Part shown: positions 13,669-51,123 of the stretch, one piece after another
Layout of the letters: each line of letters starts with the position of its first letter
How positions within the stretch are numbered: position 1 is the stretch's first letter
Made by a program: the position numbers and the translations under genes
The notes under the pieces: generated by a model
Told to the model about the DNA's origin: nothing
The model's input: only the letters and a program-made list of their open reading frames with translations
Databases searched by the model: none
Assembly: GCF_028890485.2 (NCBI RefSeq)
Contig: NZ_JARCHV010000002.1
Coordinates: 744,001-808,000 of the forward strand
Origin: Planococcus sp. SK3692
GTDB lineage: Bacteria > Bacillota > Bacilli > Bacillales_A > Planococcaceae
Direction of reading: 5' to 3'
Length of the DNA: 64,000 bases

Positions 13669-13764
13669 GTCCCTGTGCACGGAAATATTCTGACAACGGA
13701 AATGTTGTTGGATGAGGATTTGTTGAGGTTTTGGATCGCTTTTATCCCTGTGCACGACACAATT
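13669..13764 (+). repeat. TCCCTGTGCA repeat doublet, 75-bp variant
   Basis: Two direct copies of the dispersed 21-bp repeat at 13669 (its 3' half replaced by ggaaatattct) and 13744. The unit starts 16 bp after the regulator stop codon and ends 6 bp before a terminator hairpin. The whole unit is nearly identical (about 5 differences in 97 bp) to the one at 19091. Confidence 0.85.
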
Positions 13765-13769
13765 CTTCA

Positions 13770-13807
13770 AAGAACCGCTAGCTGACAGTTCAGCTGGCGG
13801 TTCTTTT
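13770..13807 (+). terminator. Rho-independent terminator of the NRPS operon
   Basis: 14-bp stem GAACCGCTAGCTGA with one G-U type mismatch, 4-base loop, then TTTT. It ends the NRPS-regulator transcript. Confidence 0.8.
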
Positions 13808-13916
13808 CATGCATTCGTGTTTTTCTCCCTTGTGGTTTAATTTTGAACCGGGAAGTATACCACATCCCGTGACTTTGCTAAACTAAGGCAAAGGATTGAA
13901 AAACTGGGGGTACACA

Positions 13917-15620
13917 ATGCGGAAAGTTAAGGTGGGGTTCATTTCCCCGTACGAAGCGATGATGCCGCTGATAGATGAACTGGCGGTGGAGCAGGATGAT
14001 TTACAGATTACGCGCGCCGTCGGGAACTTGGAGGCAGGTGTTGCGCTGGCTTTAGAAATGGAGCGGAACGGGGCGGATGTGTTGATTAGCCGCGGCGGCA
14101 CGGCGAAGTTGATCAGGGAAGCGGTGTCGCTTCCGGTCGTTGAGATCCATATCTCGGGTTATGATTTGCTTCGGTCGATTATGCTGGCTGAAGGGCATTC
14201 AAACGAACTGAAAGCGCTGATCGGATTTCCGAACATCACGATGGGCGCCGCCTCGATTGTCAGTTTGCTGGAGCTCAGGATGGAAGTAGTGGAACTGTCT
14301 TCTGCAGCGGAAGTGGTGAGCGTCTTGAAGCATTTGAAAGAACGCGGCGTTAGGCAAGTACTTGGGGATGTGGTCACCATTGACGCGGCCGCCAAGCTTG
14401 GATTAAACGGCTTGTTGATTCAATCGGGACGCGAGACTTTGCTCGAAGCGTTTGAAGAAGCGCGGCGTTTGTTTTTGTATGCCGAGAAAAACCAACAGCA
14501 ATTGCGCGCGCTCGAATTGCTGCTGGATGGATGGCATAAAGACGTCGTTATTCTGGATGACGATGGGGAGCTATTATTCGAACGCTACACTGCATTCCCT
14601 CGTCAGCCGATATCCAGCAAAGAGTTGCTCGAACTGCGAAAGCAATTATCATCGTCGCCTGCCTCATCTTTTGTGAAATTGTATGTCGATTCAGAAGCAG
14701 CTTTTTACGTAAAAGGAGAAGTGCTGGAAGATCGCAGCGGTTTGTTTACGGCATGGTCGTTTGAACAAGTGTCATTCAACAATCAAAACGATGCGTTCAC
14801 GATAGCGCAGCCTGCGCAATTGCCACTGATTGTGTCAGAAAGCCCCGGAATGAAGACGGTACGGCAGTTGGTTGAAAGTGAAGATGCTACCAGACAGCCT
14901 GTACTGATTATTGGTGAGAAAAGCACTGGAAAACAAACGCTTGCCGAATACATCCACGTGTTCCAAAACAGGAGCGGCTTGCTTTTGACGGTGGACATGG
15001 ACAAGTTTGAACAGTTGCCTGCGTTTCATGTACCTGAACAATCGACTATTGTCTTGTCTTATGGCAAATCAGCTGATCAGGAAACCATCAAGCAGACAGA
15101 AAAATGGCTTCGAGTGCTCGGACGAGATGACGTTCATTTCATCGCTTTGTTGCCGGCATATGATGAACACGTAGCCGATGCACTTGGGAAAGCTATTCAA
15201 GTGCAAGCCCCGGCGCTGCGTGAACGCCAAGAGGACATTCCATATTTGGTTAATCAATTTCTGACCGAATACCACCAGCAACTCGGCACCCAGCCGGTCC
15301 GTTTGCGGGAAGAGGCCATGGCGGTCTTAAGCAAGCACAACTGGCCAGGTAATCTGGAGGAAATGAAAAGCTATGTGAAAAAAATAGCGTTGGCGGAAAA
15401 ATCATATGTCATTGAAAAACAGACAATCGCCTCTCTTCCTTTTGAGCAGCCAAGCAGCGGGGACGAACCGCTGTTTTACTTGGATCCTCGTCACGACCTG
15501 AAGGAAATCGAGCGCTATATTATCGAACAAGTACTAAAAGAAGAAAATTACAATCAAACACAGGCAGCCAAGCGATTGGGAATTAACCGTGCCACCTTAT
15601 GGCGCAAACTCAAAGATTGA
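13917..15620 (+). CDS. PrpR_N-type regulator with degenerate sigma-54 AAA+ domain
   Basis: A 567-residue protein. The N-terminal 190 residues match the PrpR_N ligand-binding fold (SRGGTAKLIRE motif near 65-75). The central domain resembles a sigma-54 activator AAA+ module but is much reduced: Walker A is GEKSTGKQ (Gln where Thr/Ser is expected), the GAFTGA loop that contacts sigma-54 is missing, while LRERQEDIPYL and WPGNLEEM remain. The C-terminus (QTQAAKRLGINRATLWRKLK) is a Fis-type HTH. It should therefore bind DNA and a small acid but work at a sigma-A promoter. It lies directly upstream of kdgT-dtnK-pdxA2 and is their likely activator. ATG 13917 has GGGGG 6 bp upstream, better than the TTG at 13896. 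Confidence 0.85.
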   Translation: MRKVKVGFISPYEAMMPLIDELAVEQDDLQITRAVGNLEAGVALALEMERNGADVLISRGGTAKLIREAVSLPVVEIHISGYDLLRSIMLAEGHSNELKALIGFPNITMGAASIVSLLELRMEVVELSSAAEVVSVLKHLKERGVRQVLGDVVTIDAAAKLGLNGLLIQSGRETLLEAFEEARRLFLYAEKNQQQLRALELLLDGWHKDVVILDDDGELLFERYTAFPRQPISSKELLELRKQLSSSPASSFVKLYVDSEAAFYVKGEVLEDRSGLFTAWSFEQVSFNNQNDAFTIAQPAQLPLIVSESPGMKTVRQLVESEDATRQPVLIIGEKSTGKQTLAEYIHVFQNRSGLLLTVDMDKFEQLPAFHVPEQSTIVLSYGKSADQETIKQTEKWLRVLGRDDVHFIALLPAYDEHVADALGKAIQVQAPALRERQEDIPYLVNQFLTEYHQQLGTQPVRLREEAMAVLSKHNWPGNLEEMKSYVKKIALAEKSYVIEKQTIASLPFEQPSSGDEPLFYLDPRHDLKEIERYIIEQVLKEENYNQTQAAKRLGINRATLWRKLKD

Positions 15621-15637
15621 GTTTGCGTTATTTTTTT
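15603..15637 (+). terminator. Terminator of the PrpR-like gene
   Basis: Stem CGCAAACTCAA / TTGAGTTTGCG followed by ATTTTTTT. It overlaps the last codons of the gene, separating it transcriptionally from the sugar-acid operon. Confidence 0.85.
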
Positions 15638-15645
15638 GTATTAAA

Positions 15646-15710
15646 GTGTTGCAAATTTAAACTACTTTACGATTTCAGACATTTATTTTATATATTGTGT
15701 TGCAAAATTA
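15646..15710. promoter_or_regulatory. Direct repeats GTGTTGCAAAWTTA, probable activator sites
   Basis: GTGTTGCAAATTTA at 15646 and GTGTTGCAAAATTA at 15697 are 51 bp apart start to start, close to five helical turns. The second copy overlaps the predicted -35 box of the kdgT promoter. Their position suits binding by the PrpR-like regulator encoded just upstream. No -24/-12 sigma-54 promoter is present. Confidence 0.55.
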
Positions 15711-15728
15711 TATTATTCTTTCTATAGT
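15700..15728 (+). promoter_or_regulatory. Predicted sigma-A promoter of kdgT-dtnK-pdxA2
   Basis: -35 TTGCAA (15700-15705), 17-bp spacer, -10 TATAGT (15723-15728). The poor -35 is consistent with a need for an activator. Confidence 0.5.
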
Positions 15729-15734
15729 GAGTTA

Positions 15735-15748
15735 TGAAAACGTTTTCT
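15735..15748 (+). promoter_or_regulatory. cre-like site at the kdgT transcription start
   Basis: TGAAAACGTTTTCT matches the CcpA consensus TGWAANCGNTNWCA at 13 of 14 positions. It sits 6-20 bp after the -10 box, where CcpA binding would block transcription. Carbon catabolite repression of the operon is inferred. Confidence 0.7.
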
Positions 15749-15793
15749 TGTTACAATTTTCAATCTTTTAAAATAGAGAAAAGAGGGATTAAC

Positions 15794-16786
15794 ATGAAGA
15801 TTAAAGCGACTTTGGACCGGATTCCCGGCGGCATGATGGTCGTGCCATTGCTTACAGCAGCGGTCATCAATACAGTAGCACCTGATTTATTGCGGATTGG
15901 CGGATTCACACAAGCGCTGTTTGTAGATAGTTCGAGCGCCTTGATTGCCTTGTTCTTGTTGTGCACAGGCGCACAGATCAATTTAAGAAATGTCGGTGTG
16001 TCACTCGGAAAAGGCGCGACCCTGCTCGCGACAAAATGGGTAGTCGGTGCGCTGTTTGGATTGATTGCATACATGTTTGCAGGAGATAATGGCTTATGGC
16101 TCGGATTGGCGCCAATCGCAATCATTGCGGCAATGACCAATAGCAACGGTGGTTTGTTTGTGGCGCTGGTCGGCCAATACGGAAACAAAGAAGATCGTGC
16201 TGCCTATTCGCTGTTGGCATTGAACGACGGGCCGTTTTTGACGATGGTGGCGTTGAGCATTTTCGGTGCGATGGGCTTTGTAGAAGGCTTGTTTTCCCCT
16301 GTGGCGTTCATCGCCGTATTGTTGCCGATTATCATCGGGATGATTTTGGGGAACTTAGACGAAGACATGCGTACTTTCTTGGATAAAGGCAGCTTGATGC
16401 TGATTCCATTCTTTGCATTCGCGCTAGGGATGGGTATCGACTTTAACGCCATCGTTCAAGGCGGCCTAGGCGGCATCGTGCTTGGTCTCTTAACGGTATT
16501 TGTAACGGGTACGGCAGGATACATCGTCTTCAAAGCCTTGAAATGGAATCCGATTGTCGGAGCAGCTGAAGGTTCGACGGCGGGTAACGCAGTCGCAACA
16601 CCTGCGGCTATCGCAGCAGCCAGTGCGAGTTTTGCCTCTGTCGTCGATATTGCGACGGTTCAAGTGGCCGCATCGACCGTCACCACGGCGATATTGCTGC
16701 CGCTGTACATCGGCTTTTTAGTGAAACGATTGGAACGCAAAGGATTTATCTTCGAAAATGGAGAGATGCTACAAAAGGGCAAATAA
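15794..16786 (+). CDS. KdgT-family sugar-acid permease
   Basis: A 330-residue integral membrane protein with about ten hydrophobic segments, matching the 2-keto-3-deoxygluconate permease (KdgT) family in length and in motifs such as RIPGGMMVVPLL at the N-terminus, MTNSNGGLFVAL in the middle and EGSTAGNAVATPAA in the last third. Members are proton-coupled symporters for sugar acids. Here it is the first gene of an operon with a DUF1537 kinase and a PdxA-like dehydrogenase, so its likely cargo is a four-carbon acid such as D-threonate rather than KDG. The ATG at 15794 follows AGAGGG; an earlier in-frame ATG at 15734 lies inside the cre box and is rejected. Confidence 0.88.
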   Translation: MKIKATLDRIPGGMMVVPLLTAAVINTVAPDLLRIGGFTQALFVDSSSALIALFLLCTGAQINLRNVGVSLGKGATLLATKWVVGALFGLIAYMFAGDNGLWLGLAPIAIIAAMTNSNGGLFVALVGQYGNKEDRAAYSLLALNDGPFLTMVALSIFGAMGFVEGLFSPVAFIAVLLPIIIGMILGNLDEDMRTFLDKGSLMLIPFFAFALGMGIDFNAIVQGGLGGIVLGLLTVFVTGTAGYIVFKALKWNPIVGAAEGSTAGNAVATPAAIAAASASFASVVDIATVQVAASTVTTAILLPLYIGFLVKRLERKGFIFENGEMLQKGK

Positions 16787-16799
16787 GGAGTGGACAATT

Positions 16800-18086
16800 A
16801 TGGCTGGGAAAATTGGAATAATTGCAGATGATTTTACAGGGGCAAACGACAGTGGTGTCAGGCTGGCGCAAAAAGGGCTGCGGTCCAAGGTGATGCTCAC
16901 CCCGCCGGCTCACCCTGCTGCCGAAGAGCCGGAAATTGATGTGTGGATTGCAGATACGAACAGTCGTTCTGTTTCGTCGGATCAAGCATATGAAAATGTA
17001 TGCTCAGAAATAAACAATTTGAAAAAGCGCGGCGTCACGACCTTTTATAAAAAAATCGATTCGACGCTTCGCGGAAATATTGCAACAGAATTAAAGGCAA
17101 TGCAAGAGGAAGCGGAGCTGGATGTGCTATTGATTGCACCGGCGTTTCCGAGCATGGGACGCACGGTGGAAGACGGCCATTTATATGTATATGGCCAGCC
17201 GGTCACGGAGACTGAATTCGCCCGCGATCCGAAAACGCCTGTTTTGCACGATTACATTCCAGACTTGCTTGAAACGGAAGGCATCATGATTGATGTTCTC
17301 GATCAAGTTCGGCTTCGTCAAGCTGCGCCGGAACAATGGCTTGCACAACGCGTGCAACACGGCGTCAACTGGGTCGTCTGTGATACCTTGGTAGAGGAGG
17401 ATCTAGCTATACTTGCTTCACTTGAATCCAAACTCGACTTATCCATCGGGTTTGCAGGATCTGCCGGTCTAATCAATCACTTGTATACTTCAGCAACAGG
17501 CACTAACGAACAGCTTGTGGAACAGAAGGAAAAAGTGCTTGTGGTAAGCGGGAGTTTATCGAAAAACACACGGAGCCAAGTGAGCAAATTAAGTGAACGG
17601 CCATCAACGTATATGATTGAAATTGATCCGCTTGCATTACTGGACAATCCATCAGGTGTAAAACAGTCGATTTCAGAGTTGGACGAAACGTCAGATTGGG
17701 ACAGTGCGGTGATTTTCGTGGCGGCATCTGAACACAATCGTGATAAAGTGAAAGCCTGGGCGGACCAACATGGCGAAACGGCCGAAACAGCCTCTACTGT
17801 CATTGCGCAAGGTCTAGGTAGTTTGGTCAATGCAGCAATGGAAAGATATCCGTTCGATGCGGTCGTCATGACTGGCGGCGATACCGCAAAAGCGATCTGC
17901 GGCCGGCTTGGCATTGCGGATATGGAATTGAAATTTGAAGTTGAGGCAGGATTGCCGCTTGGCTTGGCCAAATGGCGGGACAAAGAAATTTCCGTTATCA
18001 CCAAAGCGGGCGGATTCGGCAATGAAGATTCACTGGTCCATGTAGTGGATTATTTGAAAGGGGAGAAAACTTATGACAGTAACTAA
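16800..18086 (+). CDS. dtnK: Four-carbon acid sugar kinase (DtnK-like, DUF1537 family)
   Basis: 428 residues. The N-terminal IIADDFTGANDSG motif and the C-terminal VMTGGDTAKAIC and KAGGFG motifs define the DUF1537 ATP-grasp-unrelated kinases that phosphorylate D-threonate, D-erythronate and related acids. Together with the following PdxA2-like gene the known pathway is D-threonate to 4-phospho-D-threonate (DtnK), then oxidative decarboxylation to dihydroxyacetone phosphate (PdxA2). AAGGAG lies just before ATG 16800; the gene begins 13 bp after kdgT and its end overlaps the next gene by 14 bp. Exact substrate is inferred from the partner gene; a second DUF1537 kinase of the OtnK branch is encoded at 46909-48348. 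Confidence 0.85.
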   Translation: MAGKIGIIADDFTGANDSGVRLAQKGLRSKVMLTPPAHPAAEEPEIDVWIADTNSRSVSSDQAYENVCSEINNLKKRGVTTFYKKIDSTLRGNIATELKAMQEEAELDVLLIAPAFPSMGRTVEDGHLYVYGQPVTETEFARDPKTPVLHDYIPDLLETEGIMIDVLDQVRLRQAAPEQWLAQRVQHGVNWVVCDTLVEEDLAILASLESKLDLSIGFAGSAGLINHLYTSATGTNEQLVEQKEKVLVVSGSLSKNTRSQVSKLSERPSTYMIEIDPLALLDNPSGVKQSISELDETSDWDSAVIFVAASEHNRDKVKAWADQHGETAETASTVIAQGLGSLVNAAMERYPFDAVVMTGGDTAKAICGRLGIADMELKFEVEAGLPLGLAKWRDKEISVITKAGGFGNEDSLVHVVDYLKGEKTYDSN

Positions 18087-19071
18087 ATCAATAATAGGCA
18101 TCACGATGGGCGATGCCGCGGGCGTCGGCCCGGAAATCATCTTAAAAAGTTTTGATCATGACGTCGTGCATGAAACGAGCCGTTCGTTTGTCATTGGCGA
18201 TGCCAGCATTTTAGAGCGGGCGAAACAATATACCGGCAGCACAAAAACCATTCACCGAATCACATCTCCGTCAGAAGCCACATTCGAACGCGAAAGCATC
18301 GACTGCTTGGACTTGGAACTGTTGACAGTAGATCTGCCGCTTGGCGAAGTGTCTCCACAAGCGGGCGATGCAGCGTTTCAATATTTGGCAAAAGCCATTG
18401 AACTGGCGAATGCAGGAGAAATCGACGCCATTTGCACAGCGCCTCTTAATAAGGAAGCCTTGCAAAAAGGCGGCCATATGTATCCGGGGCATACAGAAAT
18501 CTTGGCTGATTTGACTGGCACCAAGGATTACTCGATGATGCTCTCAGCTCCAAACCTGAAAGTCATCCATGTCACGACCCATGTTGGCATTGTAGATGCC
18601 ATTAATATGATCACACCGGAACGTGTATTGCACGTGATCCATTTAGCGAATGATACTTTGAAAAAAGCTGGAATCGATAATCCGAAAATCGCCGTCTGTG
18701 GCATCAATCCGCATGCTGGAGAAAACGGCTTGTTCGGCTACGGCGAGGAAGAAGAGAAAGTCATACCGGCTGTCCAACAAGCGCAACAAGAAGGAATCGA
18801 CGTACAAGGACCATTGCCGGCAGATACCTTGTTTTTCCGAACGGTGCGCGGCGATTTCGACATCGTGGTCGCCATGTATCATGACCAGGGACATGCACCG
18901 GTGAAAGTACTGGGACTTGAAGCTGGCGTGAACATTACGGTCGGTTTGCCGATCATCCGGACGAGCGTTGATCACGGAACGGCGTTCGATATCGCAGGAA
19001 CGGGAGTCGCTGATGAGAACAGCTTGGTTGAAGCGTTACGCCAAGCGGTGGAGTTGGCACCGAAGAAATAG
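18073..19071 (+). CDS. pdxA2: 4-phospho-D-threonate dehydrogenase (PdxA2-like)
   Basis: 332 residues of the PdxA family: GITMGDAAGVGPEI at the N-terminus, HTEILADLT and HVTTHVGIVDA with metal/substrate histidines, and MYHDQGHAPVKVLG near 275. PdxA of vitamin B6 synthesis and PdxA2 of sugar-acid breakdown share this fold; the operon with kdgT and a DUF1537 kinase, and absence of any pyridoxine gene, points to PdxA2, which yields dihydroxyacetone phosphate, CO2 and NADH. RBS GGGGAG precedes ATG 18073, 14 bp inside the end of dtnK, implying coupled translation. A repeat doublet and a strong terminator follow. Confidence 0.85.
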   Translation: MTVTKSIIGITMGDAAGVGPEIILKSFDHDVVHETSRSFVIGDASILERAKQYTGSTKTIHRITSPSEATFERESIDCLDLELLTVDLPLGEVSPQAGDAAFQYLAKAIELANAGEIDAICTAPLNKEALQKGGHMYPGHTEILADLTGTKDYSMMLSAPNLKVIHVTTHVGIVDAINMITPERVLHVIHLANDTLKKAGIDNPKIAVCGINPHAGENGLFGYGEEEEKVIPAVQQAQQEGIDVQGPLPADTLFFRTVRGDFDIVVAMYHDQGHAPVKVLGLEAGVNITVGLPIIRTSVDHGTAFDIAGTGVADENSLVEALRQAVELAPKK

Positions 19072-19090
19072 GGGAAGTAGAGTAGTAAGT

Positions 19091-19186
19091 GTCCCTGTGC
19101 ACGGAAAGATTCTGACAACCGAAATGTTGTCGGATGGGGATTTGTTGAGGTTTTGGATCGCTTTTGTCCCTGTGCACGACACAATT
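19091..19186 (+). repeat. TCCCTGTGCA repeat doublet, 75-bp variant
   Basis: Copies at 19091 (3' half replaced) and 19166, beginning 19 bp after the pdxA2 stop and ending 5 bp before a terminator. Near-identical to the doublet at 13669 along its full length, including the 54-bp middle. Confidence 0.85.
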
Positions 19187-19191
19187 CAAAT

Positions 19192-20590: not shown

Positions 20591-20676
20591 GTCCCTGTGC
20601 ATCACACAATTCGGGAGTGAAGAAGATTGATCCGACGGGATTCGGTATGGTGGGCGTCTCTGTGCACGACACAATT
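20591..20676 (+). repeat. TCCCTGTGCA repeat doublet, 65-bp spacing
   Basis: Copies at 20591 and 20656 (GTCTC variant), after the comK terminator and before the first HAD gene. It forms part of a duplicated segment: the same doublet with similar 44-bp middle precedes the second HAD gene. Confidence 0.9.
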
Positions 20677-21389: not shown

Positions 21390-21475
21390 GTCCCTGTGCA
21401 TCACACAATTTGCGCGTATAGAATCTTGATGCATAGGGATTCGGTATGGTTTGCGTCCCTGTGCACGACACAATT
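21390..21475 (+). repeat. TCCCTGTGCA repeat doublet, 65-bp spacing
   Basis: Copies at 21390 and 21455, directly after the T tract of the previous terminator. The middle shares gggattcggtatgg with the doublet at 20591. Confidence 0.92.
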
Positions 21476-25735: not shown

Positions 25736-25821
25736 GTCCCTGTGCATGACACAATTTGGAGCACGTGATTCGCATGGCGGCGGGATTGTGCTGCTTGAGT
25801 GTCCCTGTGCACCACACAATT
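25736..25821 (+). repeat. TCCCTGTGCA repeat doublet, 65-bp spacing
   Basis: Copies at 25736 and 25801, starting 14 bp after the symporter stop and ending 4 bp before the terminator stem. Confidence 0.93.
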
Positions 25822-27214: not shown

Positions 27215-27300
27215 GTCCCTGTGCATCACACAATTCCCGCGAGAAGATTGGCGTTGCAGTAGGATTCTGCTGCTTGAGTGTCCCTGTGCGCCACACAATT
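27215..27300 (+). repeat. TCCCTGTGCA repeat doublet, 65-bp spacing
   Basis: Copies at 27215 and 27280 (GCGCC variant), starting 3 bp after the stop of the 56-codon gene and ending 8 bp before a terminator. Confidence 0.92.
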
Positions 27301-29459: not shown

Positions 29460-29545
29460 GTCCCTGTGCACGGCACAATTTGGGGCGTGGAAACCGTGCC
29501 ACGGCGGGATTTTGGTGTCGTTTTGTCCCTGTGCATGACACAATT
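29460..29545 (+). repeat. TCCCTGTGCA repeat doublet, 65-bp spacing
   Basis: Copies at 29460 (CGGCACAATT variant) and 29525, in the divergent ptsH-mtlA region. Confidence 0.9.
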
Positions 29546-29574: not shown

Positions 29575-29660
29575 GTCCCTGTGCATCACACAATTTGGCT
29601 TGTGAGATTCGCACCGCAGTGGGATTTTAGTGTTCGTTTGTCCCTGTGCACCACTCAATT
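29575..29660 (+). repeat. TCCCTGTGCA repeat doublet, 65-bp spacing
   Basis: Copies at 29575 and 29640 (CCACTCAATT variant), 29 bp after the previous doublet, giving a four-copy cluster between ptsH and mtlA. Outside these doublets the 478-bp gap holds only the two promoter regions. Confidence 0.9.
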
Positions 29661-31837: not shown

Positions 31838-31960
31838 TGGAGAAATCGCTTCAGGCGGACGCTTTAGGTCAGCAGGATGCGGGTCATGCAGCTGATGCGA
31901 CAGGACGTCGCGCTTTCAGCTGCCCGTGACTTCAGTAGGAATCACTGATAGAAATAGCAC
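31838..31960. repeat. Degenerate copy of a ~105-bp GC-rich Bacillales-type repeat
   Basis: Begins cttcaggcggacgcttt like the next element but diverges inside; noncoding. Confidence 0.4.
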
Positions 31961-31980
31961 AAGACAGTGGGGAAATAAAT

Positions 31981-32095
31981 AGCTCCAGGCGGACGCTTTC
32001 CGCGGGCATGGCCTCAGCCGCTTCCCTCGCTTTGCTCAGTCCAGGGTCTTCGCCTCATGCTATTCCCGCTGGAGTCGCCGCCTTCCGCTCTTTCA
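31981..32095 (+). repeat. ~105-bp GC-rich interspersed repeat
   Basis: Starts gctccaggcggacgctttcc and ends ggagtcgccgccttccgctc, with gcgggc and ttcccgc in between, so the ends are near mirror-complementary. I recognise this style of noncoding repeat from other Bacillales genomes. Confidence 0.6.
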
Positions 32096-32309
32096 TTGCA
32101 GTGTGAAGAATAAGCAGGCTAAACCTAATAAGGTAAAAGAGGGGAATTAGCTGTTTTGCGGAATGTGCTTAGTAGTGAGAAACTGTATATAGGATAGATA
32201 AAGAAATTGATGAGCTTCTACGACTATATTGAGTAAGTTGGTAATATCAAAAGCTAGTTGGCCTAGTAGTAATTAACCTTATTGAAATACCGTATATAAC
32301 CATTGATAT

Positions 32310-32420
32310 GGAGCAAAACCACGAAGACTCCCGCGGGAAAGCGAGACAGCCGAGACCCCGCAAGACGCGAAGCGACTGAGGAGGCTTGGCGCTCGCCCGC
32401 AGGAAAGCGTAGTGGTTTTG
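32310..32420 (-). repeat. ~105-bp GC-rich repeat, inverted orientation
   Basis: Reverse complement reads ccactacgctttcctgcggg to cccgcgggagtcttcgtgg, same family as the element at 31981 but inverted. The 35-bp sequence ttttgcggaat..agtagtgaraWactgt flanks it (32416-32450) and recurs at 32152-32187, so the two elements bracket a partly duplicated stretch. The rest of the 750-bp mtlA-mtlR gap shows nothing else. Confidence 0.55.
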
Positions 32421-32505
32421 CGGAATATCTTCAGTAGTGAAATACTGTTATTGAAAACTTGTATGTTCTTCATCAACGAAAGGTGACAAGGGAGTAGGTG
32501 AGTGG

Positions 32506-35797: not shown

Positions 35798-35905
35798 GTC
35801 CCTGTGCACCACACAATTCCAACCGCATCCCAGTCGCCAAAACGGCGCCGGGATGCGGTTTTTGTGTTGCGGGTTGTGGTTGGCGTCCCTGTGCATGACA
35901 CAATT
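35798..35905 (+). repeat. TCCCTGTGCA repeat doublet, 87-bp spacing with terminator inside
   Basis: Copies at 35798 and 35885. The first starts 5 bp after the mtlD stop; an AACCGCATCC-type terminator hairpin sits between the copies, which explains the longer spacing. Confidence 0.9.
35821..35863 (+). terminator. mtlRD terminator
   Basis: AACCGCATCCC / GGGATGCGGTT stem with an inner CGCC-aaaa-CGGCG hairpin, then TTTTT. Confidence 0.85.
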
Positions 35906-35927: not shown

Positions 35928-36013
35928 GTCCCTGTGCATCACACAATTTGACGATTAGAAACCCTGTCGCAGCGGCATTTGACTGTCCGTACGTCCCTGT
36001 GCGCCACACGATT
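35928..36013 (+). repeat. TCCCTGTGCA repeat doublet, 65-bp spacing
   Basis: Copies at 35928 and 35993 (GCGCCACACGATT variant), upstream of hxlA. Confidence 0.9.
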
Positions 36014-39301: not shown

Positions 39302-39387
39302 GTCCCTGTGCACCACACAATTCACGGGACAGGAATCCTGTTGTGGCAGCGTTTGACTGTTCGTTTGTCCCTGTGCATCACACAATT
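39302..39387 (+). repeat. TCCCTGTGCA repeat doublet, 65-bp spacing
   Basis: Copies at 39302 and 39367, starting 5 bp after the hxlR stop and ending 7 bp before the terminator. Confidence 0.93.
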
Positions 39388-40348: not shown

Positions 40349-40434
40349 GTCCCTGTGCACGACACAATTTAAGGAGTGAAATTGTTGTTGGGGCGGGGTT
40401 TTACTGCCTGGTTGTCCCTGTGCATGATACAATT
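40349..40434 (+). repeat. TCCCTGTGCA repeat doublet, 65-bp spacing
   Basis: Copies at 40349 and 40414 (CATGATACAATT variant), between the starts/ends of two minus-strand genes and 4 bp from the SGNH-gene terminator. Confidence 0.9.
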
Positions 40435-41409: not shown

Positions 41410-41495
41410 GTCCCTTTGCGCCACACAATTTGCTTAGAGAAAATGCTGTTGTGGCGTGGTTTTGCTGCTCGGTTGTCCCTGTGCATGACACAATT
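41410..41495 (+). repeat. TCCCTGTGCA repeat doublet, 65-bp spacing
   Basis: Copies at 41410 (CTTTGCG variant) and 41475, in the 340-bp divergent gap between the SGNH gene and the next + gene; the gap holds nothing else I can identify. Confidence 0.88.
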
Positions 41496-41886: not shown

Positions 41887-41994
41887 GTCCCTGTGCATCA
41901 CACAATTCGAACCGCATCCTCGACGACAAAAAGGCGTGGGGATGCGGTTTTTTGGTTTGGAAAGGAAGTGTTTGTCCCTGTGTATCACACAATT
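41887..41994 (+). repeat. TCCCTGTGCA repeat doublet, 87-bp spacing with terminator inside
   Basis: Copies at 41887 and 41974 (TGTATC variant). As at 35798, an AACCGCATCC hairpin lies between the copies. Confidence 0.88.
41910..41953 (+). terminator. Terminator of the small membrane protein gene
   Basis: AACCGCATCC / GGATGCGGTT stem then TTTT, lying inside the repeat doublet. Confidence 0.82.
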
Positions 41995-44385: not shown

Positions 44386-44471
44386 GTCCCTGTGCACCAC
44401 ACAATTCTCAGGGGAGAAATGCTGATGTATCGGGATTTCGGTCTGCGCGCGCCCCTGTGCACCACACAATT
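44386..44471 (+). repeat. TCCCTGTGCA repeat doublet, 65-bp spacing
   Basis: Copies at 44386 and 44451 (GCCCCTG variant), starting 9 bp after the protease stop and ending at the edge of the terminator. Confidence 0.92.
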
Positions 44472-46010: not shown

Positions 46011-46847
46011 TTAAGCGTCCGAGTTTTTCAATAAGCGGACAAATCGTGCCATGACCGGGGTAATGGCTTGCTGCATGCCGGACATCATGTCGGACAAGTG
46101 CATCGACGAATCCGAAGCTTGCTTCAAATAGCTAGTTGCGGCGAGTGACACTTCGGTGTTGACGTTGACTTTGCAGATGCCTTTGGCGACCGCTTGTGTC
46201 ATTGTGTCGTCCGGAGTGCCGGAGCCGCCGTGGAGCACAAGCGGGACGCCGACTGCTTGGCGGATGTCATCGAGGAGTCCGAGCTTAATGTCGGGTTCGC
46301 CGGTGTACATGCCGTGGACGGTGCCGATCGACGCGGCGAGAAAATCGACGCCGGTTTGTTCGACAAATTCTTTAGCGGATTCGGGGTCGGTCAAAGCGCC
46401 GGTGCCTTCTTCCTCGTCCGAGAACGCGCCGCGTGCAGTGGAGCCGATTTCCGCTTCGACGCTGACGCCTGCCTGGTGCGCGAGTTCGACGATTTCTTTC
46501 GTGTAGGCGATGTTTTCTGCAAGCTCATGCTTCGATCCATCGTACATGACGGACGTGAAGCCGCAAGCAATCGCCCGGACGATCGACTCTTTCTCGTAGG
46601 CATGGTCGAGGTGCAAGGATACGGGAACGCTCGCTTTGTCCGCTAAAGTTTTCGTCAGTGCCGCAAAGCCTTCGACGTCAACGGTGCCGAAATACCGTTC
46701 GCCGAGCGCGATGATGACGGTTTGGTTTTCTTGTTCCGCCGCCTGGATTGCGGCTTGCAAAGTTTCGAGGCTGTAAACATTGAATGCCGCAACCGCGTAA
46801 TGGCCGGCTTGAGCCGCTTGTAAAATTTCTTTTGTTTGGGTAAACAT
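46011..46847 (-). CDS. Class II (fructose-bisphosphate-type) aldolase
   Basis: 278 residues of the zinc-dependent ketose-bisphosphate aldolase family (GatY/KbaY/FbaA). Zn ligands and catalytic parts: SLHLDHAYEKESI, SVEAEIGST, VHGMY and VLHGGSGTPDD, then VNVNTEVS. It normally splits a ketose (bis)phosphate into dihydroxyacetone phosphate and an aldehyde. In known L-threonate/D-erythronate operons this place is taken by OtnC, of a different class II aldolase fold, so an FBA-type enzyme here is a variation. ATG 46847 has GGCGG upstream; a cre box lies 18 bp before the gene. Confidence 0.9.
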   Translation of the reverse strand: MFTQTKEILQAAQAGHYAVAAFNVYSLETLQAAIQAAEQENQTVIIALGERYFGTVDVEGFAALTKTLADKASVPVSLHLDHAYEKESIVRAIACGFTSVMYDGSKHELAENIAYTKEIVELAHQAGVSVEAEIGSTARGAFSDEEEGTGALTDPESAKEFVEQTGVDFLAASIGTVHGMYTGEPDIKLGLLDDIRQAVGVPLVLHGGSGTPDDTMTQAVAKGICKVNVNTEVSLAATSYLKQASDSSMHLSDMMSGMQQAITPVMARFVRLLKNSDA

Positions 46848-46865
46848 TTCCACACCGCCTTTTAT

Positions 46866-46879
46866 TGTATTCGCTTACA
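46866..46879 (-). promoter_or_regulatory. cre-like site between otnK-like and aldolase genes
   Basis: Minus strand TGTAAGCGAATACA matches the cre consensus at 13 of 14 positions. It would let CcpA block the distal aldolase and permease genes. Confidence 0.65.
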
Positions 46880-46908
46880 TGGATGACAAGCGGCAAGTGC
46901 CGCCCGTC

Positions 46909-48348
46909 TTATCCGTGCAGAATTTCCGCTACATCTTTTAGGCTAGTTTTCGAGCCGACATTGCCCGGGAAAATCACGTAAGCCATTCCAGGGAATTTGC
47001 TTTCGCTGCCCGTCAGCCATACCGGAATGCCCGGTTGGATCTGGCCGGCGACCGTGGCGCGCTGGACGCTTAGGCCATTGGTGCCGATATCGCTCGACGT
47101 GATGCCGCCTTTTGCGATAATGAAGCTCGGGCGCACGTGCAAGTTTTTGACGATGCTCGTAACAGCGTCCGAAATCTTCACCGATAATTTCAATTCTTCT
47201 TCTTGCTGGTTGTCACCGAGGTCGAGCCGCTCGCGTTTTGTGTAGACAGTGACGGTCTGGCCCTCACGGATCAAGCGTTCGCTCGTATCGATGACGCGTT
47301 TGATTTCCGCTTCGAATTGTTCGGGATGCAAGACGAGGTGGACGTCGAACTCGATAAATTCAATGAAATCAGCGGTTTTCAGCACTTCGAATTGCTCGGT
47401 GGTCTTTTTCACATGGGAGCCGATCATGATGAGTCCGCCGTTGTCGCTCGGTTCAGTAATCAGCTCTTCTTTTGTCAGCAAGGCTTTATCGCTGATGCCG
47501 CCGATGATTTTCGTCAAGGCCGCTGCACTGCGGAACATAAATTGCTTGCCGGCGTTCATTGCGCGAATCAAAGCGATGACGACGATTTTTGCATCAACGT
47601 ACTCGACCGCGTTGACAATCACTTTATTGAAATCCGTGACCGCCATCAATTGCTCGACGAGACGGTCGATGCGCAAGGCGCGGATGTCCTCAAGCGATAA
47701 GTAGACCGCGTCTTGTGCTTTGAAGGCACCATTGGATTTTTCTTCTGCCCATTCGCCGAGGTGTGACGCCGCGTAGCCGAACGTGCGGTCTTTCGCGAAT
47801 TCGGTTTCACCGGCCGGCACTAAGTCCTCGCCATCTTGGACGTAATGGATGTTATTGATGGTCAAGCGGCCGCCTTCTTGGAAGAACGGCATGATGACTT
47901 CGCCGTCGAATGAAATGCCGGATGCCTGTTCCACGGTGTTTTTCAGCACTTCGGTCTCGAGCGGATAATGCCCGCGCAAAGTCGAGTCGCCGCGGCTAAT
48001 GATGATGAACTCTTTTTTGTGCTTCGCAGCGGTTTCTTGGATCACACGCGCGATGTCTTCATGCGCTTGTTTTGTTTCCGCTGCCGTAAAGCCTCTGGAA
48101 TTGGTGAGAATGAAGAACATCGACTGCTCTTCCTTAAATCCAGCTTCGATGCTTTCCGCTGTCCAGTCGGTATAGACTGAAACGCCGTGGACGGTTTGCA
48201 CGCCGGTCGGATCGTCGTCGAGCACGATGATTTTTTTATTGAAATCAAGCAGCTCTCGTTCGAGCAAGGCGTCGACTTGAGTGGTGTCCGGAACTGCTGG
48301 TAGTGAAGCGAAAGTTTGTTGTGCGTTTAAAATTTCAGAATGAGCCAT
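46909..48348 (-). CDS. Four-carbon acid sugar kinase (OtnK-like, DUF1537 family)
   Basis: 479 residues. Signature stretches: IIVLDDDPTGVQTVHGV (N-terminal DUF1537 motif), ISRGDSTLRGHYPLE near 140, and AKGGITSSDIGTNGL plus FPGNVG near the C-terminus. OtnK phosphorylates 3-oxo-tetronates (3-dehydro-L-threonate or D-erythronate) at C4. The upstream dehydrogenase gene ends 3 bp before this one starts, matching the oxidise-then-phosphorylate order of the known pathway. Distinct in length and motif set from the DtnK-like kinase at 16800, so the window holds both branches of the family. Confidence 0.88.
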   Translation of the reverse strand: MAHSEILNAQQTFASLPAVPDTTQVDALLERELLDFNKKIIVLDDDPTGVQTVHGVSVYTDWTAESIEAGFKEEQSMFFILTNSRGFTAAETKQAHEDIARVIQETAAKHKKEFIIISRGDSTLRGHYPLETEVLKNTVEQASGISFDGEVIMPFFQEGGRLTINNIHYVQDGEDLVPAGETEFAKDRTFGYAASHLGEWAEEKSNGAFKAQDAVYLSLEDIRALRIDRLVEQLMAVTDFNKVIVNAVEYVDAKIVVIALIRAMNAGKQFMFRSAAALTKIIGGISDKALLTKEELITEPSDNGGLIMIGSHVKKTTEQFEVLKTADFIEFIEFDVHLVLHPEQFEAEIKRVIDTSERLIREGQTVTVYTKRERLDLGDNQQEEELKLSVKISDAVTSIVKNLHVRPSFIIAKGGITSSDIGTNGLSVQRATVAGQIQPGIPVWLTGSESKFPGMAYVIFPGNVGSKTSLKDVAEILHG

Positions 48349-48351
48349 CCG

Positions 48352-49242
48352 TTACACCTTCCTTACTTCAACATTCGCCAGTCTTTCGTAGTACTGGACG
48401 ATTCCGCCGTGGTCGTCGGCTGCTTTGCCGTCGACTTTCAAAGCGTGGAAAATCTCAACGAGTTGGCTCGAAAGCGGAAGCGGCACGCCGATTTCGTGTG
48501 CGGTTTCCATCACGTTCGTCATGTCTTTTAAGTTGATATCGATGCGGCCGCCTGCGACAAAATTGCGCTCCAGGATGAGCGGTACTTTGGCATCCAGTAC
48601 TGCGCTGCCGGCCAAGCCGCCGCGAATCGCTTGATACATTTTCTCAACGTCGATGCCGGCTTTCGCTGCAAGCACGAGTGCTTCGGACATTGCGGCGATG
48701 TTCAAATTGACGATGATTTGGTTCGCGAGTTTAGCCGTGACGCCGCTGCCGTTGTCGCCGACGAGGACGATGTCGGATCCGACGCATTCGAAGACATCTT
48801 TGACGGATTCGAAAACGCTTTCTTTTCCGCCCGCCATAATTGCCAAAGTACCATCAATTGCTTTCGGCTCTCCGCCGCTGACCGGTGCATCGATCATATC
48901 GACGCCGCGTTTTGCTGCTTCATTGGCAATTTCAACCGAAGCGACAGGAGAGATTGAGCTCATGTCGATGATGACTGTTCCTGGTGTGGCGTTTGTCAAA
49001 ATCCCGTTGTCTCCAAGTACGACTTGCTTCACGTGGTGAGACGCTGGAAGCATCGTGATGACGACGTCGCAAGTGGCGCCCATTTCAGCAGGGGTTGCGA
49101 ATCGTGCACCTGCCCCGATAAGTGTATCGACGGCTTCTGTGCTGAGGTCGTTGACCGCCACTTGATAGCCCGCTTTCAGTAAGTTCAATGACATCGGCTT
49201 GCCCATAATACCAAGCCCGATAAATCCTATAGTCTTGTTCAT
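48352..49242 (-). CDS. beta-Hydroxyacid dehydrogenase, GarR/LtnD type
   Basis: 296 residues. N-terminal NAD(P) fold with GFIGLGIMGKPMSLNL; substrate motif DAPVSGGEPKA near 120; catalytic Lys in GSGVTAKLANQIIV near 170; and NIAAMSEALVLAAKAGI, IRGGLAGSAVLDAK, strikingly like tartronate semialdehyde reductase GarR. The neighbours (OtnK-like kinase, aldolase, GntP permease) instead fit L-threonate or D-erythronate dehydrogenase (LtnD/DenD), which belong to the same family. Either oxidation of a four-carbon acid or reduction of tartronate semialdehyde is possible; I favour the former from context. First gene of the minus-strand operon, divergent from gntR. Confidence 0.85.
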   Translation of the reverse strand: MNKTIGFIGLGIMGKPMSLNLLKAGYQVAVNDLSTEAVDTLIGAGARFATPAEMGATCDVVITMLPASHHVKQVVLGDNGILTNATPGTVIIDMSSISPVASVEIANEAAKRGVDMIDAPVSGGEPKAIDGTLAIMAGGKESVFESVKDVFECVGSDIVLVGDNGSGVTAKLANQIIVNLNIAAMSEALVLAAKAGIDVEKMYQAIRGGLAGSAVLDAKVPLILERNFVAGGRIDINLKDMTNVMETAHEIGVPLPLSSQLVEIFHALKVDGKAADDHGGIVQYYERLANVEVRKV

Positions 49243-49281
49243 TGATGATTGCTCCCTTCAAATTCACAAAGCTGCCATATA

Positions 49282-49295
49282 AAATAGCGCTTTCA
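49282..49295 (-). promoter_or_regulatory. cre-like site after the garR/ltnD-type promoter
   Basis: Minus strand TGAAAGCGCTATTT matches the cre consensus at 12 of 14 positions, 18 bp downstream of the -10 box; a roadblock position for CcpA. Confidence 0.55.
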
Positions 49296-49312
49296 TTTTC
49301 GTATTAATCAAT

Positions 49313-49341
49313 ATAGTACACATTATTATTCATTTTGTATA
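49313..49341 (-). promoter_or_regulatory. Predicted promoter of the four-carbon acid operon
   Basis: On the minus strand -35 TATACA (49336-49341), 17-bp spacer, -10 TACTAT (49313-49318). The -35 lies inside the first GntR palindrome. Confidence 0.45.
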
Positions 49342-49368
49342 CAAAATATTTTAAAATGTATACAAAAT
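49332..49368. promoter_or_regulatory. Tandem palindromic operators for the GntR regulator
   Basis: ATTTTGTATACAAAAT (49332-49347), a perfect 16-bp palindrome, and AAAATGTATACAAAAT (49353-49368), with an 8-bp perfect core TGTATACA. Their centres are 21 bp apart, two helical turns. TGTATACA-type palindromes are typical for FadR-subfamily GntR proteins, one of which is encoded next door. Confidence 0.75.
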
Positions 49369-49442
49369 ATGATGGCTTTTAAATTTTTCCATTAGAACTT
49401 ATACTTTGTAAGGAGAAATAAATTAGCCAGGAGTCGATTAGC

Positions 49443-50060
49443 ATGACCAAAAAATCTACACAGCTTGCGTATATCCAAGCCTATGAATACATACGGGACC
49501 AGATCCTGAACGGCGAACTCGAGCGCGGCACGAAATTAGTCGAGGAGCGGCTCGCCGAAGAGATGGGCATCAGCCGCACGCCGGTGCGCGATTCCATCCG
49601 CAAACTCGAGCAGGAAGGGCTCATCAAAGACAAACGAGTCGTCAATCCAAGCGACAGCGATTTGCGAGACGTCTTCCAAGTGCGCATGCTGCTCGAAGGC
49701 TTCGCTGTCCGCCACTGTGCGATGTATATGGCTGAAGACGACATCCAAAAATTGGGTGAATGCGTCGAAGTCGGCCGCACCGGCACGATGGAACAAGTGA
49801 TGGCGGCGAACAAGGAATTCCATGAAATCATCGTCGGCGCAACCAACAACCCCGTCATGATCGACATCTTCGAACGCATGCAGTCAATCATCTACCTGTT
49901 CCGCAAGACCGTCGTCTACCACAAACGGCCGCTGTTGATCGAAGAGCATCAAGAAATCTACGATGCCATCGTCGGCCACAACGCAGACGAAGCGGAGCGT
50001 CTCATGAAAGCCCATCTGCAGCTCGACCTGGAATTTTGTTTGAACCGGATGAAAGGGTAG
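49443..50060 (+). CDS. GntR family regulator (FadR/FCD subfamily)
   Basis: 205 residues: an N-terminal winged helix (GTKLVEERLAEEMGISRTPVRDSIRKLEQEGLI, about 28-62) and an all-helical FCD ligand domain with metal-type residues (E-x-x-x-A-V-R, ANKEFHEII with His, and HQEIYDAIVGHNADEAERLMKAHL). It is divergent from the four-carbon acid operon and two palindromes sit between them, so it is probably its repressor, released by a pathway acid. AGGAG lies 8 bp before ATG 49443. A repeat doublet and terminator follow. Confidence 0.93.
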   Translation: MTKKSTQLAYIQAYEYIRDQILNGELERGTKLVEERLAEEMGISRTPVRDSIRKLEQEGLIKDKRVVNPSDSDLRDVFQVRMLLEGFAVRHCAMYMAEDDIQKLGECVEVGRTGTMEQVMAANKEFHEIIVGATNNPVMIDIFERMQSIIYLFRKTVVYHKRPLLIEEHQEIYDAIVGHNADEAERLMKAHLQLDLEFCLNRMKG

Positions 50061-50086
50061 GGGATGGTTCGTTGGTTCTTGGTTCT

Positions 50087-50172
50087 GTCCCTGTGCATGA
50101 CACAATTTGCGAGGGGTAAATCGCGTCGCATCGGCATTCGGTTGCTCGTTTGTCCCTGTGCACCACACAATT
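50087..50172 (+). repeat. TCCCTGTGCA repeat doublet, 65-bp spacing
   Basis: Copies at 50087 and 50152, starting 26 bp after the gntR stop and ending 8 bp before the shared terminator. Confidence 0.93.
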
Positions 50173-50180
50173 CGCCAGAA

Positions 50181-50222
50181 AAAAGAAGCATCCATCCGAG
50201 AAAACGGATGGATGCTTCTTTA
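50181..50222. terminator. Bidirectional terminator between gntR and the RAYT gene
   Basis: AAAGAAGCATCCATCCG / CGGATGGATGCTTCTTT with AGAAAA loop. Repeat copies abut it on both sides, pointing towards each other. Confidence 0.88.
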
Positions 50223-50243
50223 AATTGTGTGATGCACAGGGAC
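50223..50243 (-). repeat. Single TCCCTGTGCA repeat copy, minus orientation
   Basis: Lies 7 bp after the RAYT stop codon, in RAYT's orientation. It is the only copy without a partner at fixed spacing; the partner position would fall inside the RAYT gene. Confidence 0.9.
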
Positions 50244-50250
50244 ATGCATT

Positions 50251-50829
50251 CTACATCATGTCTTCTTCCACTTTCTGTCGGTACTTCAAACAGTACTGGC
50301 AATAAGCGGCATTTGTCTTATCGTGAGGAAAGGGCATCAACGAAGAAAGTAAGGAGCGATCCAAGAAAGGTGGGGCAGGCAGATCTTCGTTCCAATAATA
50401 CGGAAACGAGCTGTACGGATAATGCGCGAGGCGCGTGACTAAAGGCGTGGATGTCTGGATGGGGTTGCGGTGGATGTAGCTGCTGACGACCAATAAGCCG
50501 TGAGCCGAAGCGATTTCCTTGGCGAAAAAGCGTCTTTGGTAGATGCGTCCGACATGGCCGTAACGTTTACTATAGGAATAGTTATAGCGGCGATTGACCA
50601 TGGCCATGATTTTGCTGAGCGAATGCTCTTTCGGCTTAATCAAAATATGGTAATGATTGGTCATGAAACACCAGGCCAGGATGGTGAACGGATAGCGGTT
50701 GTGGACGTACAAAAAGGCCCGTTTCAATTCGTTCATGTCTTCTTGTGTGCTGAAAATGGGCTGGCGGTTATTGCCGCGCATGATGACGTGGTAATAGGAA
50801 TCGGGGTTGAACTCGCGCCGTCTCGTCAT
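50251..50829 (-). CDS. REP-associated tyrosine transposase (RAYT, Y1_Tnp/IS200-like)
   Basis: 192 residues, one Y1_Tnp HUH domain. Family marks: a start RREFNPDSYYHVIMRGNNRQPIF, the metal-binding HYH pair (His59, His61) in CFMTNHYHILIKP, and a Tyr-rich helix VNRRYNYSYSKRYGHVGRIYQRRF (about 78-101) holding the catalytic Tyr, most likely Tyr86. There are no IS ends and no tnpB, and the gene is single, as expected of RAYTs that are domesticated and mobilise or maintain REP palindromes. Copies of the 21-bp repeat flank it on both sides in its orientation. ATG 50829 has GGTGG nearby; a TTG at 50874 is possible. Confidence 0.9.
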   Translation of the reverse strand: MTRRREFNPDSYYHVIMRGNNRQPIFSTQEDMNELKRAFLYVHNRYPFTILAWCFMTNHYHILIKPKEHSLSKIMAMVNRRYNYSYSKRYGHVGRIYQRRFFAKEIASAHGLLVVSSYIHRNPIQTSTPLVTRLAHYPYSSFPYYWNEDLPAPPFLDRSLLSSLMPFPHDKTNAAYCQYCLKYRQKVEEDMM

Positions 50830-51037
50830 GTGTAGCCACCATCCATTCGGGCGTTGCTGGAAAAATGAAGGCAATGCTGTTCATGAGACGGAGATTTTCG
50901 GCTAGAGGCGGTATAGTTGCTGGAGAATCCGGAAACTGGAGGCGGGGAAATGAAAAATGTGCTTATAAAAATCCCTTCTTTCTTTTAGAAAATGTAATCT
51001 CGTTCAGTATAATCGACGGGTAAAAAATAGTATACAG

Positions 51038-51123
51038 AATTGTGTGATGCACAGGGACAATCGCGCGCCAAAAAGCCGTCACTGCGCGAATCATGTCCAG
51101 TAAATTGTGTGGTGCACAGGGAC
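51038..51123 (-). repeat. TCCCTGTGCA repeat doublet, minus orientation, 65-bp spacing
   Basis: Copies at 51038 and 51103, upstream of the RAYT gene and in its orientation, in the 388-bp gap to the next gene. Apart from this doublet the gap shows only a promoter-like AT-rich patch. Confidence 0.92.

Follow-up and report, generated by a model that had tools for sequence, protein, structure and literature searches.

The window analysed here is a 64,000-nucleotide stretch of a Planococcus chromosome (positions 744001–808000 of contig C5 of genome G000, which comprises 3.54 Mb in 6 contigs). It carries a gene for a REP-associated tyrosine transposase (RAYT; REP, repetitive extragenic palindrome), together with 35 copies of a 21-bp repeat, nearly all of them in direct pairs of fixed spacing. 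The repeats are confined to two zones of the chromosome: zone B, on the left arm, contains the RAYT, and zone A, on the right arm, lacks one. Gene and repeats probably represent a RAYT/REP system of Gram-positive Planococcaceae that multiplies its repeats only locally; an earlier, sequence-only reading of the window had proposed a REP/RAYT system of another design, and the core of that proposal holds. Comparisons draw on a genus sample of 46 genomes and a family sample of 151 genomes. Fourteen of the 46 genus genomes hold 18–88 copies of the repeat and are called high-copy below. The per-genome copy lists differ in mismatch limit (3, 2 or 1) and in search pattern, and orthologous units and zone-genome sets share ancestry and so are not independent observations.

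The RAYT gene

The RAYT gene lies at 50251..50874 on the minus strand and encodes, as a mechanically called open reading frame (ORF), a Y1 transposase of 207 aa. Its product scores 80 bits against the NCBIfam model NF047646 (REP_Tyr_transpos), just at the cut-off of 80, and 23.1 bits against the IS200 model NF033573, for which the cut-off is 55; the sole PDB match (E up to 0.1) is 4er8, TnpA_REP. The family score and the structural match bear out the earlier statement that a RAYT stands beside the repeats. The HuH motif reads NHYH and the tyrosine motif YIHRNP. The ATG at 50829 (MTRRREF...) is the likely start, because relatives have an ATG (two of them a GTG) at this position and two have stop codons before it. 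With one gene copy, the only PF01797 match in the host genome, and an IS200 score far under the cut-off, the gene does not qualify as an IS200/IS605 insertion sequence. By these comparisons, it is closer to RAYT than to IS200 models, and it is a single copy flanked on both sides by cognate repeats.

Copies of the repeat flank the RAYT on both sides in 13 of 13 RAYT loci of high-copy hosts, and the frame is open from residue 16 onward in 12 of these 13 RAYTs. RAYT relatives are present in 70 of the 151 family genomes; among the 32 genus genomes with a RAYT match, 20 carry one and 12 carry two to five, fragments counted. At two places (G045, contig C1, 2527388–2537082; G129, contig C334, 15800–21570), several partial RAYT copies or pieces line up next to a longer one, a pattern suggestive of partial copying of the gene itself. 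A link of the RAYT to defence systems was considered and set aside, as PADLOC gave no match.

The 21-bp repeat and its paired unit

At up to two mismatches, TCCCTGTGCANNACACAATT has 33 matches in the window and none in 100 dinucleotide shuffles. Two further copies with four mismatches (at 13669 and 19091) bring the total to 35, spanning 13669–51123. Searched as the 21-mer GTCCCTGTGCANNACACAATT at up to four mismatches, the 35 copies form 17 direct pairs and one single, so that 34 of 35 are paired directly. The start-to-start spacing is 65 bp in 13 pairs, 75 bp in two and 87 bp in two, exactly as the sequence-only reading had counted. Each repeat is laid out as a GTCCC tag followed by a TGTG-N5-CACA stem-loop and then AATT. 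Nearly every copy carries the tag GTCCC, which matches neither the GTAG/GTGG tag of classical REPs nor the CGTC that is also known. The predicted stem-loop, which had been pointed out before, recurs in almost every copy; its stem is nearly invariant in the Planococcus clade, and covariation is therefore uninformative.

Spacing, orientation and spacer statistics were compiled from both zones of four genomes, using copies with up to two mismatches for spacing. Among 145 same-strand neighbours up to 110 bp apart, 99 lie at exactly 65 bp. The others lie at 86–88 bp (25), 75–77 bp (7), 64 bp (1) and 39–62 bp (13; 39–43, 50, 56, 60 and 62 bp), and none of the 145 falls at 66–74 or 78–85 bp. Since 65 bp is the dominant spacing in each of the four genomes, the value is not a matter of local chance, which had been named beforehand as a refuting outcome. 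The 44-bp spacer of this class keeps its length and, as had been described, only loosely its sequence, with a sparse core in which column 33 is A in 98 of 99 and column 52 is T in 95 of 99. The 87-bp class, common in zone B, has a terminator-like hairpin inside. In the 75-bp class, the first copy ends in GGAACTATT or GGAACGATT in relatives and in GGAAAGATT in the variant first copy of the window pair at 19091..19186; next to two Psychrobacillus RAYTs, copies have the ending AAACTATT.

With ORFs of at least 90 aa as the reference, 130 of 143 units in the four genomes lie outside ORFs. Of these 130, 95 have an ORF 3' end within 100 bp and 43 have a 5' end that near. A size of about 86 bp for the mobile unit, as put forward earlier, is plausible; its exact ends are not defined, the few empty sites being too diverged. 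A second hairpin in the 44-bp spacer is not supported: RNAalifold on 97 distinct units recovers both 21-mer stems and, besides them, a single 4-bp helix; the best spacer column pair reaches a z of 4.2 among 820 pairs of related sequences; and the mean folding energy changes little on spacer shuffling (-11.1 before, -10.2 after). Rfam has no match at the repeats.

The 65-bp pairs on the plus strand lie at 20591..20676, 21390..21475, 25736..25821, 27215..27300, 29460..29545, 29575..29660, 35928..36013, 39302..39387, 40349..40434 (flanked by two minus-strand ORFs), 41410..41495, 44386..44471 and 50087..50172. The thirteenth, at 51038..51123 on the minus strand, stands on the 5' side of the RAYT and on the strand of the gene. 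The unpaired copy (50223..50243, minus) adjoins the RAYT stop codon on its 3' side, where several relatives have a pair at 86–87 bp. Both 87-bp pairs (35798..35905 and 41887..41994) and both 75-bp pairs with a variant first copy (13669..13764 and 19091..19186) are on the plus strand; at the site orthologous to 13669..13764, G019 lacks the first copy and the spacer.

Confinement to two chromosome zones

The repeat had been called dispersed, which the genome-wide count contradicts: all 65 copies in the host genome (up to three mismatches) fall within the two zones, which make up 4.6% of the genome. The same is true of 425 of 425 listed copies in six genomes (G000, 65; G001, 80; G015, 82; G019, 56; G020, 75; G042, 67). 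Measured from dnaA, zone A extends over 682–776 kb in G001, 652–731 kb in G015, 668–730 kb in G019 and 663–769 kb in G020, and zone B over 996–1032, 841–898, 875–914 and 951–1019 kb, respectively. Across five measurable chromosome-length contigs, one of them from a sister genus, the zones lie 0.58–0.78 Mb to the right and 0.84–1.03 Mb to the left of dnaA. The RAYT sits no more than 1 kb from an edge of zone B in six of six genomes, and this edge faces the terminus in the four measured. In G000, the five stretches around zone B have a positive GC skew and the seven around zone A a negative one, as expected of two opposite arms. Two stretches of G000 just outside the zones have a low GC content (C4:1130001–1150000, 0.38; C5:700001–720000, 0.36), the zones themselves being at about 0.44–0.54.

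dnaA and one dif-like site could be placed in 12 of 12 genomes. The distance of dif from zone A is about 1.0–1.1 Mb in G001, G015, G019 and G020, and its distance from zone B is 0.66–0.78 Mb; the repeats are therefore not a Ter system or another feature centred on dif. Nor are the zones exact mirror images about the origin: the midpoint of zone A is closer to dnaA by about 0.2–0.3 Mb, and the symmetry is only rough.

Local crowding extends to other genera. In G134, 27 of 27 copies lie at 673–828 kb, with the RAYT at 796 kb (-123/+32 kb), and in G049, 38 of 38 lie on the RAYT contig within 120 kb. The corresponding figures are 33 of 40 copies within 137 kb on the RAYT contig in G067 (five on a second contig and two elsewhere) and 24 of 29 within 255 kb in G064. 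Less telling are G056, with 13 copies over four contigs, and G129, G097, G116 and G082, with 1–6 copies each. The sister-genus genome G074, a 3.72-Mb chromosome starting at dnaA, repeats the two-arm pattern: of its 26 copies, 11 are at 583–724 kb, 12 at 2708–2832 kb, where its RAYTs sit, and three at 3.41–3.49 Mb.

Co-occurrence with the RAYT and matching of the loops

At up to two mismatches, a strict limit that variant copies in outgroups escape, the motif is present in 23 and absent from 23 of the 46 genus genomes. A link between the repeat and the RAYT across strains had been set beforehand as a test of the sequence-only reading, and it was found: 12 of the 14 high-copy genomes carry a RAYT of 78–100% identity, and no genus genome outside the 14 has one. 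The 20 genus genomes whose RAYT match reaches at best 73% identity have at most six copies each. Of the 14 without a RAYT match, ten have no copy, and G040, G012, G029 and G016 have 1, 6, 53 and 69, respectively. A census of 66 distinct RAYT loci (17 duplicates removed), in which copies with up to four mismatches were sought within 1.5 kb, finds at least one copy at 42 of the 52 loci outside the high-copy hosts.

The loop of the hairpin follows the type of the resident RAYT. In the RAYT tree, the high-copy group consists of a clade of nine (support 100/98) and four others. Scored by the first loop base within 900 bp, nine of nine clade RAYTs are accompanied only by C-loop copies and four of four others only by T-loop copies. 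The same correspondence extends over the zones, with C loops in 62 of 65 copies in G000, 81 of 82 in G001, 81 of 84 in G015 and 78 of 79 in G020, in 29 of 31 in zone B of G014 and in 34 of 36 in part of zone B of G037. In G036, which has a T-type RAYT, 13 of 13 copies in the 80-kb stretch containing the RAYT are T-type, and the T-type host G019 has 44 T, 17 C and one other among 62. In zone B, G043, with both RAYT types, has 43 C and 6 T among 49 copies, and G005, which has a T-type RAYT together with a short RAYT remnant (90% like that of the window), has 21 C, 23 T and two others among 46. At a single shared place, site 9 of zone B, the loops are CCCC in G000, G020, G001 and G014, CTTT in G005 and TTTT in G019.

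The loops may have changed either through rewriting of the 21-mers by the RAYT or through mutation with selection. Replacement of whole units is not clearly behind the change: spacer identity is 0.57 (n = 75) where both loops have switched, compared with 0.62 (n = 261) for same-loop orthologues and 0.48 (n = 7440) for non-orthologues, means that are diluted by four-copy units.

Orientation, local similarity and age of the units

The units have a preferred strand. They are in the leading-strand sense in 28 of 34 cases in G000 and in 117 of 143 in four genomes, and the tagged strand is therefore the lagging-strand template. The same sense is seen for 13 of 17 units between two lagging-strand ORFs and for 27 of 32 in convergent gaps, and the direction of the genes is therefore not what drives the bias. 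Against a coin, the orientation in G000 has p = 0.0002. The enzymes of the IS200/IS605 elements IS608 and ISDra2 likewise act on the lagging-strand template, according to passages of PMC6006769.

Neighbouring units also resemble each other. Spacer similarity is higher between units separated by less than 6 kb than between more distant ones in eight of eight zone-genome sets (permutation p 0.0012–0.04), and it is higher within than between zones in four of four genomes (p 0.0005–0.03).

Zones A and B are largely collinear between species. Compared with G020, the 17 units of G000 zone A fall into 15 occupied, no empty and two not locatable sites, and the 17 of zone B into 13, none and four; compared with the more distant G019, the counts (occupied/empty/not locatable) are 9/0/8 for zone A and 5/1/11 for zone B. 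None of the 34 G000 sites is locatable in outgroup G008. Clear empty sites are rare, and the number of units changes within sites. Orthologous 65-bp units (without G019, n = 62) are 98% identical in tag and stem, 78% in loops and 69% in spacers, and the 30 bp preceding them are 49% alike in an ungapped comparison that scores shifts as differences. The dnaA tree firmly supports only the split of eight high-copy genomes from four others, the interior of the clade being mostly unresolved.

Direct and inverted pairs across the RAYT family

Of the 66 RAYT loci of the census, 14 have direct pairs at 65 or 69 bp (the 13 loci of high-copy hosts and G134), 18 have inverted pairs at 123–125 bp and four have other inverted classes; thus 18 of the 22 non-direct loci with a recognisable pair have it near 124 bp. 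A second, hand-picked set of eight stretches and 31 RAYT loci gives, for pairs up to 160 bp, 54 inverted (plus then minus), 11 direct and six inverted the opposite way. After eight double-fetched pairs are dropped, the 46 inverted pairs lie at 123–125 bp (32), 104–105 bp (2), 113–114 bp (3), 134–135 bp (4) and elsewhere (5). Individual genomes have their own classes: a tight inverted pair at 24 bp occurs ten times in G049 and six times in G067, inverted pairs at 104–105 bp occur seven times in G064, and direct pairs at 69 bp occur seven times in G134, which also has tandem direct copies. Beside a RAYT 53% like that of the window (locus L107 in G166), eleven copies with up to four mismatches form a direct tandem array in 50-bp steps.

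Members of this RAYT family thus often have inverted units like those of REPINs (REP doublets forming hairpins), whereas the units of the window's clade are direct. In the window itself, 17 of 17 pairs are direct, so it does not hold REPINs in the sense of inverted REPs. The earlier claim that direct pairs differ from inverted REPs stands to this extent; the contrast, however, lies within one RAYT family, since relatives have inverted pairs. Direct units are polar, whereas inverted units have no polarity.

The direct classes (65, 75–77 and 86–88 bp) and the inverted classes (104–105, 113–114, 123–125 and 134–135 bp) are separated by steps of about 10–11 bp, near a helical turn. Helical phasing is noted here and is not proven: there are only a few classes, related to one another, and with a single class dominating, 10.5 bp did not stand out in a Rayleigh scan. 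A spacer core common to the direct units of Planococcus and G134 is only weak, with 18.8 matches compared with 16.6 in shuffles.

Other features of the window

Two GC-rich intergenic pieces of about 120 bp (31974–32111 and 32305–32442) belong to a different repeat family, dispersed and with no relation to the 21-mer, that has many places in each of seven other Planococcus genomes among the matches listed. Next to them, Rfam marks a Bacillaceae-1 RNA (31869–31931, minus) and nothing else. The window also encodes, on the plus strand, a 3310-aa non-ribosomal peptide synthetase with a C-terminal NAD-binding reductase-type domain (722–10654) and a protein of 1395 aa in which a C39-like peptidase domain precedes many TPR repeats (52342–56529).

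Origin of the second zone

Zone A of four genomes contains no convincing RAYT relic (best E 0.36). It does not appear to be a copy of zone B either: in G000, G020 and G019, the two zones share no DNA match longer than 150 bp. Conceivably, one ancestral RAYT zone was split by a rearrangement between the arms, or a moved seed grew into zone A, with no special targeting in either case; this account, compatible with local multiplication by the RAYT, is a serious candidate that we nevertheless hold only tentatively. It draws on the glpF-glpK block in the middle of zone A, which is on the left arm in outgroups G008, G013, G024 and G039 (dnaA and dif placed), lies at like coordinates in G045 and G006, and is 80–116 kb from the RAYT in the four of these six outgroups that carry one. 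Zone A was not moved wholesale, however, because 14 of its 104 ORFs have counterparts in a right-arm stretch of G008, and other zone A pieces are scattered in that genome (for example, at 1.80, 3.11 and 3.29 Mb); a searched 19.9-kb piece of zone B is scattered in outgroups as well. Outgroups, moreover, already carry decayed or variant copies, some near the RAYT and some in the right-arm zone. In G008, this zone has seven decayed copies (up to two mismatches) in 100 kb, where three shuffles give zero even at three mismatches. It holds decayed copies in G074 as well, and the second zone is therefore older than the clade or arose repeatedly. The plainest account would be that a seed was carried across with the glpF-glpK block and then spread locally.

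Proposed mechanism and alternative explanations

We propose that the single-copy RAYT recognises a 21-nt single-stranded hairpin, GTCCC plus TGTG-N5-CACA plus AATT, and that it would cut and paste the repeats as single strands. Both hairpins of a unit point the same way, like the two ends of IS200/IS605 elements, and the unit is therefore polar. Two-hairpin units would have been multiplied only within about 130 kb of the RAYT gene and in the second zone on the opposite arm. Coupling to replication would place most units with the tagged strand in the lagging-strand template, and new copies would have tended to land near their parent. Most copies are now fixed at shared sites, with loops that still follow the type of the resident RAYT.

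Several observations weigh against this proposal. The high-copy genomes G016 (69 copies) and G029 (53 copies) have no RAYT match at E up to 1e-5, the RAYT frame of the high-copy genome G042 is interrupted by a stop codon at residue 161 of 207, and 17 of 62 copies in the T-type host G019 are C-type. At the 66 RAYT loci, 20 have copies and no such pair, and ten have no copy. Nearness to a RAYT is insufficient by itself, as the second zone has none, and two of the four other-genus genomes (G134, G049, G067 and G064) as well as G074 have copies far from the RAYT. The orientation bias in G000 falls to p = 0.02 when set against the local 63% leading-strand bias of ORFs. The GTCCC guide sequence differs from the GTAG/GTGG tag of classical REPs, and it is from sequence that we infer transposition and cleavage by the RAYT. 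Finally, the units are old, because their sites are mostly shared between species, and present-day movement is not visible.

A bolder variant holds that the RAYT acts on single-stranded DNA only near its own gene and at a roughly opposite place on the other arm, so that the repeats would be a fossil map of regions that meet or replicate together; the enzyme would rewrite hairpins at fixed sites to its own loop type, and the switch from inverted to direct units would have made a strand-neutral repeat strand-polar. The like arm distances of the zones in five contigs and the loops that follow the RAYT at shared sites are compatible with it, and we regard it as unlikely. The pairs might instead be sites at which a chromosome-organising or regulatory protein binds, maintained in two zones by selection, with the RAYT a co-opted DNA-binding partner or a bystander. 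The matS, Noc and Ter sites are binding sites of this kind. Sharing of sites across species, a tag and stem 98% alike after 30 bp that are 49% alike (ungapped), spacing classes locked about one helical turn apart in direct and inverted pairs, and zone positions kept on the arms of five measurable chromosomes would all suit such sites. That loop type tracks RAYT type, that repeats flank the RAYT in all 13 high-copy loci and occur within 1.5 kb of 42 of 52 others, that half of the genus genomes (23 of 46) lack the motif at two mismatches and that unit number varies within sites all speak for the RAYT instead, and we think a binding-site role rather improbable. Least probable of all, and in our view very unlikely, are selfish remnants, that is, end pieces of an old IS200-like element copied by replication slippage and now drifting, with pairing and confinement accidental. 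Old, shared sites, decayed or variant copies in outgroups and the tandem direct copies in G134 and beside the G166 RAYT (50-bp steps) would be expected of them, yet the exact 65-bp spacing is kept although spacers differ at about one third of positions even between orthologues, the 21-mer hardly decays, the loops have changed in step with the RAYT, and the frame is open in nearly all RAYTs of the high-copy hosts. Local multiplication by the RAYT is thus the reading we prefer.

Relation to known systems

Local crowding of REPs at a RAYT is already known. Nunvar et al. 2010 (PMC2817692) report, in the passages available, three marine gammaproteobacteria with REPs no farther than 200 kb from the RAYT and a Thauera strain with more than one third of its REPs near the RAYT. 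The gammaproteobacterial REPtrons described there resemble the Planococcus system in having a Y1 gene flanked by 5'-tagged short hairpin repeats whose copy number tracks the RAYT. In contrast, Planococcus has a Firmicute host, a GTCCC tag, polar direct units, a RAYT-less second zone on the other arm, which those passages do not describe, and sites mostly shared across species. Relative to the portions of the literature consulted, the Gram-positive host, the polar direct units, the second zone and the loop matching look new; in the titles, abstracts and passages of the open-access literature searched, no description of a Firmicute or Gram-positive RAYT or of the Planococcus repeat was found.

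REPINs, reportedly introduced by Bertels and Rainey in 2011, come next. In passages of PMC8049555 they likewise consist of two REPs and a variable spacer, are non-autonomous and are inherited vertically over long times, and the inverted 124-bp pairs of related RAYTs fit this plan. The Planococcus repeats differ in being direct at an exact 65-bp spacing, and the two copies therefore cannot pair into one hairpin. In IS608-type elements, the left and right end hairpins with a 5' guide sequence point the same way, as they do in the direct unit. IS200/IS605 elements, IS608 among them, also share the HuH/Y1 family and the preference for the lagging-strand template (passages of PMC6006769), whereas the Planococcus RAYT is single-copy and not self-spreading, and the mobile part would be a gene-less 86-bp unit. 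The class 2 TnpA_REP of Quentin et al. 2018 (PMC6006769) has a comparable Y---NP motif (here YIHRNP), HuH motif (here NHYH) and 5'-tagged repeats; passages and a word search of its main text revealed no GTCCC direct-pair subclass and no mention of Firmicutes. The GTAG/CGTC REP families of Di Nocera et al. 2013 (PMC3733652), as far as the passages go, are likewise short tagged palindromes, single or as dimers, with a different tag and, for most families, a genome-wide distribution.

The partnership of RAYT and REP, described in the parts of the literature searched only outside the Firmicutes, is thereby extended to a Gram-positive family with many sequenced species. Hosts with either or both RAYT types, or with a remnant, offer a natural experiment on whether, and over what distance, the repeats are still acted on by RAYTs, and the reach (tens of kb to about 130 kb), the strand preference and the loop specificity can be read from genomes. 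If it is true that the RAYT rewrites repeats in place, a domesticated transposase would be a local DNA editor.

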